Below are positions 13,584-21,399 of a DNA stretch of 64,000 nucleotides, piece by piece (position 1 is the stretch's first letter; every line of letters starts with the position of its first letter). This DNA is from Mycobacterium barrassiae (GTDB lineage Bacteria; Actinomycetota; Actinomycetes; Mycobacteriales; Mycobacteriaceae), in NCBI RefSeq assembly GCF_025822765.1, contig NZ_JACKUK010000012.1, positions 62,001-126,000 on the forward strand, in the 5' to 3' direction. The translations under genes were made by a program, and so were the position numbers. Below the pieces are notes generated by a model. That model was not told where the DNA came from and did no database searches. It saw only the letters and a program-made list of their open reading frames with translations.

Positions 13584-15647
13584 GTTTTTGCCCGAACGGG
13601 CGGTGACCAGCTCTCCGCGGTCCTCCATCCAGCCCCGTTGCACCAGCATCCGGTGCACGATGCGCTCGAGCGCGGCCTCCACCTGCAGCCGGTCGGGCCG
13701 GCCGTCGAACGCCGAGGACGCGGCCAATTTGTCGACGATGCGTCCGACGATCAGCGCGGAGATGGCGTCGACCTGTTTCCTTCCGGACTGGGTGAGCCAC
13801 AGCCGGTCTCCGGTCCGCAGTGCGAGTCCGCTTGCGACCAGACTGTCGAATGTCGGCTCGAGGACCTCGTACGGCACCCGCAGCCGCTCGGCGATGTCGG
13901 TCAGGGTGGCCGACCCGAACACCTGGTTCTGGCGGTAGATCTGCAGCAGCGCCCACATCTGGGTGACGTCGAGTCGGCATTCGGGAAGTTGGGCGAGACT
14001 GCGTAGTCGAAGATCCGGCGAGTCGCGGAAGATCCGCCCGATGGCCACTTCGAGGATCTTCTCGGGCGACTCGGTGCTCGGCATGCCGAAGCCCTCGCCG
14101 AGGTCGGTCGCCGACACCGTTTCGATTTCACGCAGCCGCACCTCTTTGAGGAAGAGCGAGACGATGAATCCGACGATGGCTACGGGTACCCCGCACAGAA
14201 ACACCGTGCCGAGCGAATCCGCGTAGGCATCGACGATGGGTGCGGCCATCTCCGGGGACAGCGCATGCAATGCCTGTGGCGAGTCCGCCGCACGAGCCGG
14301 CGCCCCGCTGGCCATCAGAGCCGACGGGATCCGGCTGGCGAGGAAGTTGGCGAACAGCGAGCCGAAGATCGCTGCGCCGAAGGAACTTCCGATGGTCCGG
14401 AAGAAGGTGACACCCGACGTCGCGACGCCGAGATCGGCGAAGGTCGACGTGTTTTGGACCACCAGGATCAGCACCTGCATGCACAGGCCGATCCCGGCAC
14501 CCAGGATGAACAGGTACACCGACTGCTGCCACACCGGTGTAGCGGCGCCCATCTGGGACAGCAGAAGGAAACCGAGCGCCATGGTGGCGGTGCCCACGAC
14601 GGGGAACACCTTGTACCGACCGGTGTGGCCGACGATGTTGCCGCTTCCGATGGAGGTGATGAGCATCCCGGCGACCATGGGCAGGGTGCGCATGCCCGAT
14701 TCGGTTGCCGAGACACCGTTGACGAACTGCATGAAGGTGGGCAGGAACGTCAGGGCACCCAGCATCGCGAATCCGACGATGAAGCCGAGGATGCAGCACA
14801 CCGTGAACACCGGGCTTCCGAACAACCGGATCGGCAGAATCGGCTCCGCGGCACGGGATTCCACCCATACGAAGACCGCCAACGCGACGGCGGACCCGGC
14901 GAACAGCGCGATGATGATCGGCGACGACCAGGCGTATGTGCTGCCGCCCCAACTGGTGGCCAGCGTCAGACCCGAGGCGGCGAGGCCGATGAACAGGATG
15001 CCGGCGTAGTCGATCACCGGCTTGGCGGTCCTGGCCAGCGACGGGATGGCCATGGCGCCGACGACGAGCACCAGAACCCCGATCGGAACGTTGATCCAGA
15101 ACGCCCATCGCCAGGTCAGGTGGTCGGTGAAGAACCCGCCGAGCAGCGGGCCGATGACCGTGGTGACTCCGAACACCGCGCCGAGCGCACCCTGATAGCG
15201 ACCGCGCTCGCGCAGCGGGATGACCTCGCCGATGACCGCCATCGCGGTGACCATCATCGCGCCGCCGCCGACGCCCTGCAGTGCGCGCGAGGCCACCAGC
15301 ATCGTCATCGATCCGGCTATTCCGCACAGCACCGAGCCGGCGAGGAAGAACAGGATCGCCGCACAGAAAACGGCCTTGCGGCCGAACAGGTCGCCGAGCT
15401 TGCCGACGATCGCGGTGACGATCGTGGAGGCCAGCAGATAGCTGGTCACCACCCACGACTGGTGGCCTGCTCCCCCGAGGTCCGCGACGACGGTCGGCAG
15501 GGCGGTGGCGACGATCGTCTGATCCAATGCCGCCAACAGCATGCCGAGCAGCACCGCAACGAAGATGATGTTGCGGCGCCGAAGGCTGATCAGCGCGTTG
15601 GGCGATTCGTGATCCGCGGCGGGGGCGTCGGTTGGCGCGGTCGTCAT
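13581..15647 (-). CDS. DHA2-family MFS multidrug transporter with C-terminal winged-helix domain
   Basis: A 688-aa drug:proton antiporter of the 14-helix EmrB/QacA group, with motif A (GKLGDLFGRK) and the TM1 motif LDQTIVATALPTVV. Helices occupy about 28-510. Beyond them, some 170 residues form a soluble C-terminal domain whose central part (VTQMWALLQIYRQ, TLTDIAERLRVPYEVLEP, LWLTQSGRKQVD) reads like a MarR-type winged helix. M. tuberculosis Rv1877 has the same length and neighbours. Two inverted repeats lie just upstream (15666-15701). The role of the fused regulator-like domain, sensing or gating, is unknown. Confidence 0.9.
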   Translation of the reverse strand: MTTAPTDAPAADHESPNALISLRRRNIIFVAVLLGMLLAALDQTIVATALPTVVADLGGAGHQSWVVTSYLLASTIVTAIVGKLGDLFGRKAVFCAAILFFLAGSVLCGIAGSMTMLVASRALQGVGGGAMMVTAMAVIGEVIPLRERGRYQGALGAVFGVTTVIGPLLGGFFTDHLTWRWAFWINVPIGVLVLVVGAMAIPSLARTAKPVIDYAGILFIGLAASGLTLATSWGGSTYAWSSPIIIALFAGSAVALAVFVWVESRAAEPILPIRLFGSPVFTVCCILGFIVGFAMLGALTFLPTFMQFVNGVSATESGMRTLPMVAGMLITSIGSGNIVGHTGRYKVFPVVGTATMALGFLLLSQMGAATPVWQQSVYLFILGAGIGLCMQVLILVVQNTSTFADLGVATSGVTFFRTIGSSFGAAIFGSLFANFLASRIPSALMASGAPARAADSPQALHALSPEMAAPIVDAYADSLGTVFLCGVPVAIVGFIVSLFLKEVRLREIETVSATDLGEGFGMPSTESPEKILEVAIGRIFRDSPDLRLRSLAQLPECRLDVTQMWALLQIYRQNQVFGSATLTDIAERLRVPYEVLEPTFDSLVASGLALRTGDRLWLTQSGRKQVDAISALIVGRIVDKLAASSAFDGRPDRLQVEAALERIVHRMLVQRGWMEDRGELVTARSGKN

Positions 15648-15665
15648 ACCTACCTTCCGTTTGGC

Positions 15666-15701
15666 GTGGTGACAGGCTCACCACACCTATCGTTAGATAG
15701 G
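15666..15701 (-). promoter_or_regulatory. Two adjacent inverted repeats upstream of MFS gene
   Basis: First repeat: GTGGTGA-N5-TCACCAC (15666-15684), perfect 7-bp arms. Second: CCTATC-GTTA-GATAGG (15686-15701), perfect 6-bp arms. They lie 19-54 bp upstream of the MFS start codon, where a repressor would act. A TAGCCT hexamer on the minus strand just beyond could be the -10. The regulator is unknown. Confidence 0.55.
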
Positions 15702-15780
15702 CTATGGAAGTTACATCACCGAGGAAGGGGTACCACGCGAAGCCGGTCGGGAAGCCGGTCGGCGTCCCGCGACTTCGGAG

Positions 15781-16266
15781 TTATGCGTGGCTGGGCGGCC
15801 TGGAAACGCACTGAGCCGAGTACAGCTCCGTGCCGAGCTTGTCCATCAACTCGAGCTGCGTCTCGAGGTAGTCGATGTGATCCTCTTCGTTGGCCAGGAT
15901 CTTCTCGAAGAGGTTCGCCGTGGTGGCGTCCTCCTTCTCGCGGCACATGATGATGCCGGGTTTCAGGCGGGCCAGCACCTCGTATTCGATCGCCAGGTCG
16001 GCCTCGAATTGTTCGCGCAGTGTCTGGCCGATTCGCAAAGAGAACAGCCGCTGATAGTTCGGTAGCCCGTCGAGGATCAGAATTCGATCGGTGATCGCCT
16101 CCGCGTGCTGCATTTCTTCAAACGACTCTTTGCGGGTGTATTCCGCGAGTTCGGTGAATCCCCAATTCGCCTGCATCTTCGAATGCAGAAAATACTGGTT
16201 AATGGCGGTGAGTTCGCTTGTCAATTGCTCGTTGAGCAATTTCAGAACGTCGGGATCCCCTTGCAT
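15781..16266 (-). CDS. bfrA: Bacterioferritin BfrA
   Basis: A 161-aa four-helix ferritin subunit that oxidises Fe(II) and stores it in a 24-mer shell. Ferroxidase ligands Glu18, Glu51 and His54 are present, with the second set in the NEEDHIDYLE helix, and the heme ligand Met52 follows Glu51. Length and sequence match mycobacterial BfrA (Rv1876). A TAGATT hexamer on the minus strand (16324-16329) may be its -10. Tandem IdeR boxes at 16454-16492 lie about 190-225 bp upstream, a position from which IdeR could activate, as it does for M. tuberculosis ferritin genes. The divergent gene pair includes Bfd, its expected electron donor. Confidence 0.95.
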   Translation of the reverse strand: MQGDPDVLKLLNEQLTSELTAINQYFLHSKMQANWGFTELAEYTRKESFEEMQHAEAITDRILILDGLPNYQRLFSLRIGQTLREQFEADLAIEYEVLARLKPGIIMCREKEDATTANLFEKILANEEDHIDYLETQLELMDKLGTELYSAQCVSRPPSHA

Positions 16267-16453
16267 CTTCGCTCCTAGGCACCTTGAGGCTGGGCAGGTG
16301 TGGCGTGCTGCAGTGCAGTACCCAATCTAGTCCAGAAAATGCCGAACGGCGCATCTTTCTTGTTGCGCGAGGCGCGTTTTCGGGTCGCCGGGGCGCGATC
16401 GCGTCAATCGCAGGACGCAGATCAGGCCCCTACTCTGGACTGCCTAGGCTAAG

Positions 16454-16472
16454 TAAGGTTAGACTGCGCTAA
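16454..16472 (+). promoter_or_regulatory. IdeR box 1
   Basis: A 19-bp site matching the iron-box consensus TTAGGTTAGGCTAACCTAA at 14 of 19 positions, with an intact left half (AAGGTTAG). It is 38 bp upstream of the ATG at 16510 and exactly 20 bp from box 2, which suits two stacked IdeR dimers. Confidence 0.65.
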
Positions 16473-16473
16473 C

Positions 16474-16492
16474 ACCTGCTAGCCTCACCTAA
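16474..16492 (+). promoter_or_regulatory. IdeR box 2
   Basis: A 19-bp site with the right half-site intact (ACCTAA end) and 12-13 of 19 consensus matches. It lies 17 bp before the ATG at 16510, where bound IdeR would block initiation under high iron. Together with box 1 it probably represses the 16510-17345 operon. Confidence 0.6.
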
Positions 16493-16509
16493 GGGACATG
16501 GAATAGGTA

Positions 16510-17142
16510 ATGAGTGATTACGACCTGCACTCACTTATTCTTGCCTGCGATTTCCGCGTCGACGACGTCGATCGCATGTGGAAGTGGCTCAAGCGCCATT
16601 CCGATGGACTCGCATCGATCGGTGCCCATCATGTCGTGCTTTACACATCGATCTGGGAATCCAATCGCGTACTGGTGACGATCGGTATTCGCAATGTCCG
16701 TTCGATGCGCGATGTTTTGCGGTCGCCAGAGATTTTCGAGTGGTTCAACATTTCGGGCGTCGAAGACATCCCGCCGATATTCGGCGGCGAGGTCGTCGAG
16801 AAGATCGACCTGTATCCCCCGTCGCCGGCTGACCACGTCGGCCGGGTCGTCGTCGGGGTCATGTCGTCGGTCGAGGACGTGTCTGCGCTGATGGTCAAGT
16901 TGCACGACGGAGTCGAGCGCTTCAAGCGCGGCGGAGTCCGCAAGATCTGGGTCTACCGCGCGCTCGATGACGGGCAGGAGGTGATGATCCTGCAGGAAAT
17001 CGAGGATGAGGATGCCGCCCGGCAGTGGATCGAGCACCCCGATGCGGCCGCGGAGTGGATGTCGAATGCAGGCTTCGGCCCCTACCCGACCCAGTTCGTC
17101 GGCAGGTTCGCCCATCTCATGAGCGTGGACGAGCGGAGCTGA
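16510..17142 (+). CDS. IdeR-box-controlled tandem alpha/beta-barrel-domain protein, unknown function
   Basis: A 210-aa cytosolic protein with no recognised family name. It is visibly built from two related halves (about 5-103 and 111-205). Each ends with the pattern hydrophobic strand, RxxxxxP, acidic/aromatic W-containing helix, G, P, F-x-G-R/E. Compare RSPEIFEWFN..GVEDIPPIFGG with EHPDAAAEWM..GFGPYPTQFVG. This resembles a dimeric alpha/beta-barrel (ABM-like) fold duplicated in one chain. Tandem IdeR boxes precede it, bfd follows 5 bp downstream, and bfrA is divergent. I infer a role in iron release from bacterioferritin or heme handling; the sequence itself shows only fold-level hints. Confidence 0.75.
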   Translation: MSDYDLHSLILACDFRVDDVDRMWKWLKRHSDGLASIGAHHVVLYTSIWESNRVLVTIGIRNVRSMRDVLRSPEIFEWFNISGVEDIPPIFGGEVVEKIDLYPPSPADHVGRVVVGVMSSVEDVSALMVKLHDGVERFKRGGVRKIWVYRALDDGQEVMILQEIEDEDAARQWIEHPDAAAEWMSNAGFGPYPTQFVGRFAHLMSVDERS

Positions 17143-17147
17143 CGCCG

Positions 17148-17345
17148 ATGTTCGTATGTCTGTGCCTGGGTGTGACGAGTCACGACGTCGACGAGGCCGT
17201 GGCCAAGGGGGCCAGCACGTCCAAGCAGATCACCGAGGCCTGCGGGGCCGGCGGTGACTGCGGGCGGTGCCGCCGGACATTGCGCGCGATGATCGCAGCA
17301 CATCGCGAACTCAACGGGGCCACCCCGAAATCCGTGAGCTACTGA
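17148..17345 (+). CDS. bfd: Bacterioferritin-associated ferredoxin (Bfd)
   Basis: A 65-aa [2Fe-2S] protein with all four cluster cysteines at Cys4, Cys6, Cys38 and Cys41 (CLC and CGRC motifs), the exact Bfd spacing. Bfd docks on bacterioferritin near the heme and passes electrons in so that stored Fe(III) leaves as Fe(II). It starts at ATG 17148, 5 bp after the preceding stop, so both genes share the IdeR-boxed promoter and would be induced in iron starvation. The stop overlaps the end of the convergent enoyl-CoA hydratase gene by 7 bp. Confidence 0.92.
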   Translation: MFVCLCLGVTSHDVDEAVAKGASTSKQITEACGAGGDCGRCRRTLRAMIAAHRELNGATPKSVSY

Positions 17346-18097
17346 CCCTTCTTACCGGTGAAGTCGGCCAGTGCGGCGGCGTTGGCGGCGGCGCCCATCA
17401 GGACGGCGAACTGTTGGTTCTCCCGTTCGGTGGCAGCCGCGATGCCCTCCCGGGTGGGAGCGATGATGGTCTGCTTGACCGCCATCAGGCTCGAAATCGG
17501 CCGGGAGGCAAGGACTTCGGCGTGTCGCCGCGCCTCGGGCAACAGGTCGTCCGGCTCGCAGACCTTCCACACCAGGCCCATGCGGTGGGCTTCGTCGGCA
17601 TCCACCCACTCCGATGACATCAGCAGCCAGGCGGCGTTCTGCCGGCCGATCAAACGCGGCAGCAGGTACGACGACGCCGCTTCGGGCGCAACACCGAGAC
17701 TGGTGAACGGAGTCTTCAGCCGTGCGGTCGACGACATGAACACCAGATCGGCATAACCGAGGATCGTCGCGCCGATGCCGACGCCGACCCCGTTCACCGC
17801 ACAGATCAGCGGCTTGGGGAAGTCGGCGAGGGCGTCGATCATCGTCGAGAAGTGGCTGCCCTGCTCGTTGAACGCAGGATCGGTGATGCGCCTCTGCATT
17901 TCGTTGAGATCGTTACCGGCGCTGAACGCCCGTCCCGCCCCGGTCAGCAGCACCACCGCGACTTCGGGATCGGCCGCCGCCTCGTTCAACGCGATCGCGG
18001 TGGCGTGATACAGCTCTTCGTTGAACGCGTTCAGCACATCCGGCCGATGGAGCGTCAGCGTGCGCACCCGCTGGTCGTCGGCAATCTGGAGAATCAC
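17339..18097 (-). CDS. Enoyl-CoA hydratase/isomerase family protein
   Basis: A 252-aa crotonase-fold enzyme. The oxyanion-hole segments are GRAFSAGNDLNEM and NGVGVGIGATI, with the hydratase region DLVFMSSTARLKTPFTSLGVAPEAASSYLLPR. A Glu in the second catalytic position is not clear (GVAPEAASS), so it could be an isomerase or another crotonase rather than a true hydratase. The start is GTG 18097. It acts in fatty-acid or sterol CoA-ester degradation. It lies 16 bp downstream of the PPOX gene and is probably co-transcribed with it. Confidence 0.87.
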   Translation of the reverse strand: MILQIADDQRVRTLTLHRPDVLNAFNEELYHATAIALNEAAADPEVAVVLLTGAGRAFSAGNDLNEMQRRITDPAFNEQGSHFSTMIDALADFPKPLICAVNGVGVGIGATILGYADLVFMSSTARLKTPFTSLGVAPEAASSYLLPRLIGRQNAAWLLMSSEWVDADEAHRMGLVWKVCEPDDLLPEARRHAEVLASRPISSLMAVKQTIIAPTREGIAAATERENQQFAVLMGAAANAAALADFTGKKGQ

Positions 18098-18113
18098 GCC
18101 AGCAGCGTATGCG

Positions 18114-18557
18114 TTAACCGTTGCTGTACACCCGGCTGGGTGCGATAAGCACGACGGTGCGGCGCTGCTCGGCCATCACCCTGTCGTACTCGTCCCAATC
18201 GTCGTGCGTTCCGCCTGCCGCGGTGAATACCTCACGCAACAACAGCCGAAGCTGCTCGGGATCGGCGAGCCAACTTTGCGAATCGTCGGGCCCCACCAAC
18301 TCCGCTCTGCCCTCCACTGTCGCCCACTGCCAGCCCTTGCGGAACGTCACCGCCAGCTGCGGGCGTGCCCGCAGGTTGGCCAGCTTCACCTTGCCGTAGG
18401 TGACGAACCCGAGCACCCGTTCCCCGGTGGCCGGATGCGCGAGCACGCCGACGTTGACCAGCGACGCCTGAACGGAGTTGTCGGCGCGCACAGTCGAGAC
18501 GACCGCGAGCCCACTCTCGTCGGCGGCCAAGCCGAACGCCTCGTCCAGTGTGGTCAT
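18114..18557 (-). CDS. PPOX-class F420/flavin-binding protein (Rv1875 orthologue)
   Basis: A 147-aa split-beta-barrel protein of the pyridoxamine-5'-phosphate-oxidase superfamily. Such proteins bind F420 or flavin and reduce varied substrates. Typical strands are seen in GLAVVSTVRADNSVQASLVNVG, the KLANLRARPQLAVTF core and the WATVEGRAELV strand. Length and position match M. tuberculosis Rv1875 (147 aa). It sits between the EthD-like gene (4 bp upstream) and the enoyl-CoA hydratase (16 bp downstream) in one apparent transcript. Substrate unknown. Confidence 0.85.
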   Translation of the reverse strand: MTTLDEAFGLAADESGLAVVSTVRADNSVQASLVNVGVLAHPATGERVLGFVTYGKVKLANLRARPQLAVTFRKGWQWATVEGRAELVGPDDSQSWLADPEQLRLLLREVFTAAGGTHDDWDEYDRVMAEQRRTVVLIAPSRVYSNG

Positions 18558-19317: not shown

Positions 19318-19683
19318 TCAGGCTTCCAACCTCGCACGGATGCTCGCGAGCCGCTCCTTGAGCTCGGCTTCGTCGATGACGCCCCTGGCGACCAACGAGT
19401 GTGCCAGGGACATCAGCTGGTTCTCGGGGTACGGCAGGTCCGCGTACAGCGAGGCCGAGAGGGCGTCCTCCTCGTCGCGGCGCTCCTTGAAGGAGGGGAT
19501 GTTCTCGTCGCACGAGGCGCGATCGAGGGCGTCGCACATTCCGTCCAGGCTCGTCTTCCACGGCGGCACAGGGTTTTCGACGCCCCACTTGGCGGCCATG
19601 CGCGGCCAGACCTGACCGCGCTGGACGATTTCCTCGAGCGGTTCGATGCGCGCGGGCTCGACCGGCCGTGGCTCGGTGCTCAT
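19318..19683 (-). CDS. Nitrile hydratase accessory protein
   Basis: A 121-aa protein resembling the N-terminal helical part of nitrile hydratase beta subunits. Its PYPENQLMSLAHSLVARGV...AELKERLASIRARLEA parallels PYYGRWLLAVARVLVEKHH...SELSERMAEVKERY of the beta subunit encoded two genes upstream. Such accessory proteins serve as metal/alpha-subunit chaperones (activators). It overlaps the alpha-subunit stop by 4 bp (ATGA) and is the last gene of the nitrile hydratase set. Confidence 0.85.
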   Translation of the reverse strand: MSTEPRPVEPARIEPLEEIVQRGQVWPRMAAKWGVENPVPPWKTSLDGMCDALDRASCDENIPSFKERRDEEDALSASLYADLPYPENQLMSLAHSLVARGVIDEAELKERLASIRARLEA

Positions 19684-20405
19684 CCGGCGTTACCCGGGTG
19701 AATCGCGGGCCGGGTGTCGACGATCATGTTCGTCGTGACGCCCGGCTTCGGCAGTGCCACCCCGATCAGGCAGTCGCGGGTGATGATCTCGACCAGCTGA
19801 TCCTCGGTCCAGTCCTCGGTGCCCTCGGGCCGCATGGGCATCACCATGAAGCGATGCTTCTGGTTGGAGTCCTGCACATGGATCGTGATGTCGTCGGGCA
19901 GGTAGAGACCGAACTCGGCCAGCACCTGGCGCGGCCAGCGGACAAGGCGCCGACGGTAATTGGGAGTCCGGTACCACTCGGGTGAGTTGCCGAGGATCGG
20001 CCGCGGGTAGCACGAGCACAGCGCGCAGACGATCACGTTGTGCAGCGTGGGGGTGTCCGCGAGGATCTGGAACGCGGTGAAATCGCTCGGGGTGCCCCAT
20101 CCTGTCGGATGCAGCCAGTCGACACCGACTTCCTTGCTGGCGGTCATCGGTTCGGCGAGGGCGAGTTCCTTGAACTCCGGATCGAGCCACGCCTTGGCCA
20201 CCAGACGTGCGGCGGGCGTCGGGCCGATCTGCTCGGCGAACTCGGTCATGACGCGGTGTTCCTCGGCGGTGAAGATGCCCTTCTCGATACACAGCTCACG
20301 CAGGGCGATCTCGAGGACCTCGAAGTCGGTGATCTCGTCGACCATGGGGGCGACGGTTCTCTCGTGGTCGTGATCGTGGTCGTGGTCGTGATCGTGGTCA
20401 GACAA
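19680..20405 (-). CDS. nthA: Nitrile hydratase alpha subunit with His-rich N-terminus
   Basis: About 241 aa. This subunit holds the metal that converts nitriles to amides, in a cysteine cluster where two Cys are normally oxidised. The cluster here is Cys127-Ala-Leu-Cys130-Ser-Cys132. Known enzymes have Thr (cobalt) or Ser (iron) where this one has Ala128. The start is taken as TTG 20405, with an AAGG-type ribosome site 9 bp before it, because it captures a (Asp-His)6 run, plausibly a cobalt/nickel/zinc-binding tail. An ATG at 20345 is the alternative and would exclude the run. It lies 23 bp after the beta gene and overlaps the accessory gene by 4 bp. Gene order beta-alpha-accessory resembles cobalt-type clusters. 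Confidence 0.9.
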   Translation of the reverse strand: MSDHDHDHDHDHDHERTVAPMVDEITDFEVLEIALRELCIEKGIFTAEEHRVMTEFAEQIGPTPAARLVAKAWLDPEFKELALAEPMTASKEVGVDWLHPTGWGTPSDFTAFQILADTPTLHNVIVCALCSCYPRPILGNSPEWYRTPNYRRRLVRWPRQVLAEFGLYLPDDITIHVQDSNQKHRFMVMPMRPEGTEDWTEDQLVEIITRDCLIGVALPKPGVTTNMIVDTRPAIHPGNAG

Positions 20406-20428
20406 AGTGAATACCTTTCTCGGCGAGA

Positions 20429-21265
20429 CTATTTGGCGGCTTCGAGCCAGCGTTCGGGGATTTCGGTGGAGATGACGTCGTGGTCCGTTCCGGTGTAGCC
20501 GTACCAGAGGTCGGCCATGTTGAACCTCACGACGTAGAACCACTCCGGGCGCACAGGACGATCCCACGTCTCGTCCTCGGCGGCCGGACTCTCGTATGCG
20601 ACGGCTTCGATCTCACCCGTTGCCCCGCGGACGTATTCGGGGGTGCGGGTGTAGAAGATCACCGGAAGTTCACGGACGACGACCGGGTCGCCCACCTTGA
20701 ACTTCGGCGGGCCCGCCTGGCCGGCGTAGCACTGCGGGTCGCCCTTGCCGTCCGCCTCCTCGGCATGCTGATTGCGCTTGACCTGCGAGCCATCGCCTTC
20801 GGATTTCGGTCGCGCCTCCAGCGTCTTGCCGTCAAGGCCGCCCGCGTAGCGCTCCTTCACCTCGGCCATCCGCTCGCTCAACTCGCTGAGTCCGATGTGG
20901 TGTTTCTCCACCAGAACCCGCGCAACGGCGAGCAGCCAGCGCCCGTAGTACGGCAGCCCGAGGTATTCGGCGCGCCCGACATCGACGTTGCCGATGCGGC
21001 GTCGTTCCTCCGACAGCCAGATGCCGCGCCACCCGAGAACCTCGCACATGACATAGGTCATGTGCTCCCAGAGTTCGTACTGCTTGTTCTCGTACTTCAT
21101 GGGCGCATCGGGTTCACCGCCGACGTCGTGGACGGGCTTGAGATAGGCGGTGATCCGGCCGTGGTCCAACATGTCGGGCGTCGGCGCATCGGGCAGTTCG
21201 GGATAGGCCGATTTCAATCGGGAGGTCAGTTCCAACTGAGCAGCGCGCTCTGCTGCTGTGCTCAT
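20429..21265 (-). CDS. nthB: Nitrile hydratase beta subunit
   Basis: A 278-aa beta subunit that forms the substrate channel and the dimer with the alpha subunit. Helical N-terminal part: MLDHGRITAYLKPVHDVGG...YELWEHMTYVMCEVLGWRG...PYYGRWLLAVARVLVEKH. C-terminal SH3-like barrel: FKVGDPVVVRELPVIFYTRTPEYVRGATGEIEAV. A charged linker (about 150-185) separates them and is longer than usual. The start is ATG 21265, which shares one base with the stop of a 44-aa upstream ORF (TGATG); a TTG at 21268 is also in frame. First enzyme gene of the operon with the alpha subunit and accessory protein. Confidence 0.9.
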   Translation of the reverse strand: MSTAAERAAQLELTSRLKSAYPELPDAPTPDMLDHGRITAYLKPVHDVGGEPDAPMKYENKQYELWEHMTYVMCEVLGWRGIWLSEERRRIGNVDVGRAEYLGLPYYGRWLLAVARVLVEKHHIGLSELSERMAEVKERYAGGLDGKTLEARPKSEGDGSQVKRNQHAEEADGKGDPQCYAGQAGPPKFKVGDPVVVRELPVIFYTRTPEYVRGATGEIEAVAYESPAAEDETWDRPVRPEWFYVVRFNMADLWYGYTGTDHDVISTEIPERWLEAAK

Positions 21266-21399
21266 CAAGGGTCCCTTCGTCGGTCGGAAGTGCCGGTGCG
21301 CACTGGAGATCGGTGAACGTGATGGGGAGAACCTGGCGGAATCCGGAGCAGTGAGCAGGGTCCAGCAACGCCGCCGAATCCGACAGCATTGTTGGTCAT
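21265..21399 (-). CDS. 44-aa leader ORF coupled to nitrile hydratase genes
   Basis: Short ORF (MTNNAVGFGGVAGPCSLLRI...) with a strong ribosome site: GGAGG five bases before its ATG at 21399. Its TGA overlaps the ATG of the beta subunit by one base (TGATG), the geometry of termination-reinitiation coupling. The peptide is rich in Gly/Pro at the start and Arg/His/Ser at the end, with one Cys, and has no signal peptide. It could be a regulatory leader peptide or a small functional partner, or just a coupling device. Not recognised as a family. Confidence 0.5.
   Translation of the reverse strand: MTNNAVGFGGVAGPCSLLRIPPGSPHHVHRSPVRTGTSDRRRDP

Follow-up and report, generated by a model that had tools for sequence, protein, structure and literature searches.

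A window of 64,000 nucleotides (the whole stretch analyzed here) from Mycobacterium barrassiae, contig NZ_JACKUK010000012.1, positions 62,001 to 126,000, carries a bacterioferritin gene, bfrA, and, divergent from it, a gene called X in this work that is followed by the bacterioferritin-associated ferredoxin gene bfd. An earlier note, written from the letters of this stretch, had described bfrA on the minus strand, a 210-amino-acid (aa) product of X and bfd 5 bp further on, and the open reading frames (ORFs) and profile matches agree. The order at the locus is bfrA, an IdeR-like operator, X, and bfd, with the following features:

15781..16266, minus strand: bfrA, bacterioferritin, divergent from X-bfd (TIGR00754, E 4e-72, 241.4 bits against a cut-off of 125.55)
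16434..16452, plus strand: weaker, partly conserved second IdeR-like element, 20 bp upstream of box 1 (12/19; at least 12 in 45/79 relatives)
16454..16472, plus strand: box 1, conserved IdeR-like box, TAAGGTTAGACTGCGCTAA (14/19; at least 13/19 in 79/79 relatives)
16460-16465, plus strand: -10-like hexamer TAGACT of the presumed X-bfd promoter, inside box 1 (from sequence)
16474..16492, plus strand: box 2 of the earlier note, nonconserved and of doubtful function (13/19 in the window; at least 12/19 in 0/79 relatives)
16510..17142, plus strand: gene X, predicted tandem alpha+beta-barrel protein, 210 aa, Bfd-associated (ORF, predicted model, and linkage)
17148..17345, plus strand: bfd, bacterioferritin-associated ferredoxin, 65 aa (Fer2_BFD PF04324, E 1.4e-12, 48.1 bits against a cut-off of 26)

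Bfd matches its family profile and has all four cysteines of the [2Fe-2S] pattern CxC...CxxC (C4, C6, C38, and C41), as the earlier note had stated. X and BfrA of M. tusciae are 92% and 93% identical, respectively, to those of the window, and no Rfam family reached its gathering score within 15600-18200. The bfrA-bfd layout is already known, and X is the new element. A passage of PMC5218490 (citing Gold 2001) places bfd of M. tuberculosis divergent from bfrA and under IdeR control, much as here; unlike that locus, the one in the window has X between the operator and bfd, as the first gene of the presumed operon.

The operator was scored as matches out of 19 to a near-palindromic IdeR consensus, both in the window and at 79 related loci (L021-L099, among them L077 of M. 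vaccae; L100 was excluded, having moved away from bfrA). Box 1 is the only site of at least 14/19 on the plus strand of the window. The form TWAGGTWAGNCTNNNCTWA occurs once in the window and in none of 100 shuffles, and once in the 5.9-Mb genome, with no occurrence of a reversed-pattern control; having been derived from box 1 and its kin, it demonstrates specificity and does not serve as an independent test. Box 1 differs from the textbook IdeR box: a scan allowing up to 3 mismatches to TWAGGTWAGSCTWACCTWA returned 6 sites in the genome (1 for the control), and box 1 was not among them. Three of these 6 near-canonical sites adjoin an acyl-carrier gene, which we take to be of the mbtL type, a haemophore-domain gene, and a pheA-DUF2470 pair; no iron link was seen in the genes adjoining the other 3. 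The iron-dependent-repressor domain PF02742 is present in two genes of the genome.

The -10 element overlapped by box 1 is of the mycobacterial kind, and because TAGACT lies within the box, IdeR bound there should shut off the X-bfd promoter. In the window, bfrA and bfd diverge around IdeR-like boxes, and of the tandem pair of boxes proposed earlier, box 1 holds up across all 79 relatives while box 2 does not survive as a conserved element. Together with the prior reports on bfd, the conserved predicted operator makes IdeR-repressed expression of the X-Bfd pair likely, in line with the IdeR-type control first suggested. The bacterioferritins of M. smegmatis, including Msmeg3564 (BfrA, according to a passage of PMC8371482), are described in part of PMC2170428 as not induced in any condition tested there, a result that does not speak for control of bfrA itself by iron.

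X has no match at an E value of 1 or below in Pfam or NCBIfam, which bears out the statement that it belongs to no described family. No description of X was found in the titles and abstract starts of open-access literature, a search that did not cover alternative annotation names, and MSMEG_3565, our guess for the gene adjoining MSMEG_3564, has 0 occurrences in the open-access literature. The duplicated-domain character attributed to X is borne out both by alignment of its halves and by a predicted structure (pLDDT 81.2, pTM 0.81), in which a strand-helix-strand-strand-helix-strand pattern appears twice. On this model, X is predicted to be a tandem, pseudo-dimeric alpha+beta barrel of the antibiotic-monooxygenase (ABM)-like fold. 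Related tandem-barrel monooxygenase-like structures include 5f9p (anthrone-oxidase-like) and 9kdp (PenE), with 13 and 16% identity to X, respectively; X differs from them in falling under the cut-off of the Pfam ABM family PF03992 and in being paired with Bfd. PF03992 matched in 3/48 relatives of X (best E 0.0047). When the X profile was compared with sequences of proteins of solved structure, the best E was 0.084, which was judged to be chance.

Two alternative readings concern the activity of X. X could be an enzyme fed by Bfd, either an oxygenase or a reductase, that acts on lipid, aromatic, or siderophore-like substrates, with the site beside bfrA providing only low-iron expression. We regard this as a tentative possibility: the nearest tandem barrels are monooxygenase-like, but the fold is common, the ABM cut-off is not reached, and no catalytic residue was identified. 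Alternatively, X could bind or degrade haem as an IsdG/HmoB/MhuD-like protein, handling the haem of BfrA in iron shortage. This appears very unlikely. Proteins such as HmoB and LmHde degrade haem, but X lacks a family-wide conserved histidine: none is invariant or near-invariant among 26 diverse X sequences, compared without superposition on a haem enzyme, and at the position of H176 several of these rows carry R, N, K, or other residues instead. In addition, the haem enzymes listed among the structure matches rank under non-haem tandem barrels.

The X profile matched 18/296 genomes of the class, all within this genus (1/114 genera). A broader profile matched 45/397 genomes of the order, including 40 of the 42 same-genus genomes listed; outside the genus it found 3 genomes of one other genus (E 6e-12 to 5e-9). 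Weak matches (G043 with the X profile, G433 and G582 with the broader one; E 7.6e-4 to 0.008) were discounted as probably due to chance, and neither X nor its one-domain relative matched on plasmids. Two forms were distinguished within the genus. X-A lies between operator and bfd and adjoins bfrA; X-B, a label for copies away from bfrA that makes no claim to a clade in the X tree, lies elsewhere without bfrA and is ~36-50% identical to X of the window. Among 37 genomes of the genus (the source genome included, some incomplete), 9 have X-A only, 22 have X-B only, 2 have both, and 4 have neither. The matches in the other genus, which belongs to another family of the order, are one-domain relatives beside bfd:

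L179, 3985-4299: one-domain X relative
L180, 4195-4500: one-domain X relative
L181, 4120-4425: one-domain X relative

Upstream of X-B, no strong IdeR-like box was seen (13/19 in two of 20 loci and none better, within up to 3 kb on one strand of the near-palindromic consensus), a further point against handling of BfrA haem by X. Neighbors of X-B, surveyed at a few loci, include AMP-binding ligases, a P450, an acyl-CoA dehydrogenase, an amidohydrolase, and a SnoaL-like protein. Beside X-B in L135 (5661-5960), there is also a 100-aa protein starting MIKTGTRLQSQVCDTQVIVVR, with similar ORFs in L128, L129, L138, and L142; the L135 protein matched nothing in Pfam at 0.01 or in NCBIfam at 1.

What recurs across these forms is the pairing with bfd. 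Of 80 X loci, which are the nearest of 254 matches and so biased to close kin, 78 hold bfrA, X, and an adjacent bfd together, which excludes the case, named in the earlier note as fatal to its proposal, that relatives of X never co-occur with bfd and bfrA. In the 37 genomes, bfd lies directly downstream of X on the same strand, at 5-52 bp by match coordinates, for 28 of 35 X genes (a count that leaves out the second fragment of a G031 gene and the weak match in G043), comprising 11/11 copies next to bfrA and 17/24 elsewhere. All three one-domain relatives also sit beside bfd, each ~20-50 bp behind it and hence in reverse gene order, and no bfrA match was found within 8.5 kb of them. Since X-B and the one-domain relatives accompany bfd with no bfr found nearby, X tracks Bfd and not bacterioferritin.

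The earlier note had X act in emptying bacterioferritin, and a direct contribution to iron release from BfrA, for example as a Bfd-BfrA adaptor, draws on the shared operator and on the bfrA-X-bfd order in those 78 loci. The bfd pairings away from bfr and the frequency of bfrA-bfd loci lacking X speak against it. The bfrA-bfd pair can do without X: in 23/37 genomes of the genus, the two genes are neighbors and X is missing from the locus. We therefore consider the adaptor role rather doubtful; a direct part of X in emptying bacterioferritin is possible and is not favored as a necessary one.

Loci of this X-free kind were inspected in 20 cases. In each, bfd is divergent from bfrA with at least one site of at least 12/19 between them, and several have two site copies ~24 bp apart. 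The bfrA-bfd gap is below 0.5 kb in 19/20 and ~3.2 kb in L146. At seven loci from other genera of the order, picked for having a bfd match, all had a bfrA match beside bfd and none had an X match. As a separate observation, in 11/20 X-free loci (L143, L145, L146, L149-L153, L155, L156, and L158) an ATG 7-8 nucleotides after the -10 element opens an ORF of 14-42 aa that overlaps the bfd start with its stop codon (TGATG), with four of the products ending in GVC; these are likely leaderless upstream ORFs coupled to bfd. In the 80 X loci, window included, such an ATG is in frame with X in 13, out of frame in 5, and absent in 62.

Phylogenies were consulted for the history of the locus, using chosen subsets of sequences and, for X and bfrA, quick methods. 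In the X tree, a single starred clade unites the 38 bfrA-linked copies with the moved copy L100. In the Bfd tree, the bfd genes of X-A loci, that of the window among them, group with bfrA-side bfd and apart from the bfd of X-B; the fork joining them (45 rows, 94/94) falls just short of the program's star, in a tree of 56 columns with unsettled bootstrap and long outgroup branches. On the bfrA tree, 5 changes are needed to account for the presence of X at the locus, and starred branches force 3 of these. This pattern fits an old residence of X at the bfrA locus with several losses, for which a quick one-gene tree is no proof.

Based on the repeated linkage in gene order, a role for X as a Bfd partner is supported. 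Our preferred reading, which we hold to be moderately probable, is that X is a dedicated partner of Bfd in a two-protein redox module, placed here under IdeR behind the bfrA-bfd operator. Several observations weigh against it: 7/24 X-B genes lack a neighboring bfd match; 3 of the 23 genomes with an X-free bfrA-bfd locus have no X match anywhere (one of them, G025, is 80% complete); and 0/14 distant one-domain barrel proteins of the phylum, drawn from 17 matches outside the genus, have a Bfd match within ~1.5 kb, so that the barrel fold does not by itself imply a tie to Bfd. X and Bfd have calculated pI values of 5.0 (acidic) and 8.4 (basic), respectively, but BfrA is acidic as well (pI 4.6), and charge therefore cannot single out an X-Bfd contact. 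The linkage counts, moreover, are not independent of descent. This last point would favor mere co-transcription of X with no functional tie to Bfd, the linkage being lineage history inherited within clades. We consider that unlikely, as X and bfd stay paired next to bfrA, at loci away from it where bfd is of a different group, and, with gene order reversed, in the one-domain form.

As a dedicated Bfd partner, X would be expected to act as follows. When iron is plentiful, IdeR-Fe would cover the -10 element and silence X-bfd, and in iron shortage X and Bfd would be made together. Bfd would then pass electrons to BfrA and help release its iron, as Bfd of Pseudomonas is described as doing for bacterioferritin in passages of PMC5218490 and PMC7762939. 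Those passages, which also report that P. aeruginosa Bfd rises in low iron, make no mention of X; the Bfd-BfrB system resembles the present one in its four-cysteine Bfd-type ferredoxin and in the bacterioferritin found beside it here, and differs from it in the IdeR-type boxes of the window. X, a predicted intramolecular pseudo-dimer of two ferredoxin-like alpha+beta-barrel domains, would most likely dock reduced Bfd and either spend the electrons of Bfd on a small ligand bound within the barrel or gate their passage to it. In this role, X would assist iron release without being required for it. A more speculative extension is that X is a Bfd-dependent enzyme. Besides the service to bacterioferritin usually attributed to it, Bfd would then also supply electrons to an alpha+beta-barrel family not described before, which would have originated as a one-domain dimer, been fused in mycobacteria, and been placed under IdeR beside bfrA.

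Other features were noted in the window and in related genomes. The region 19321-21268 holds the alpha and beta genes of nitrile hydratase plus a third gene that is beta-N-like. The alpha motif reads CALCSC; the metal motifs of nitrile hydratases are CSLCSC and CTLCSC. A near-canonical IdeR box (2 mismatches) lies 6.5 kb past the end of the window, between a penicillinase-repressor-type gene and a gene for a 258-aa protein (L171, 708-1481, minus strand) that had no Pfam or NCBIfam match at 0.001. In 3/37 genomes of the genus (G018, G024, and G004), there is a second bacterioferritin gene, 79% identical to BfrA of the window and away from any bfd match.

The part played by Bfd in iron release in M. 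tuberculosis is described in a passage of PMC5218490 as still a matter of speculation, and a conserved partner offers a handle on whether Bfd serves that process. Such a partner also hints that bacterioferritin is not the sole recipient served by Bfd-type ferredoxins; in these mycobacteria, Bfd may have a partner other than the iron store itself.
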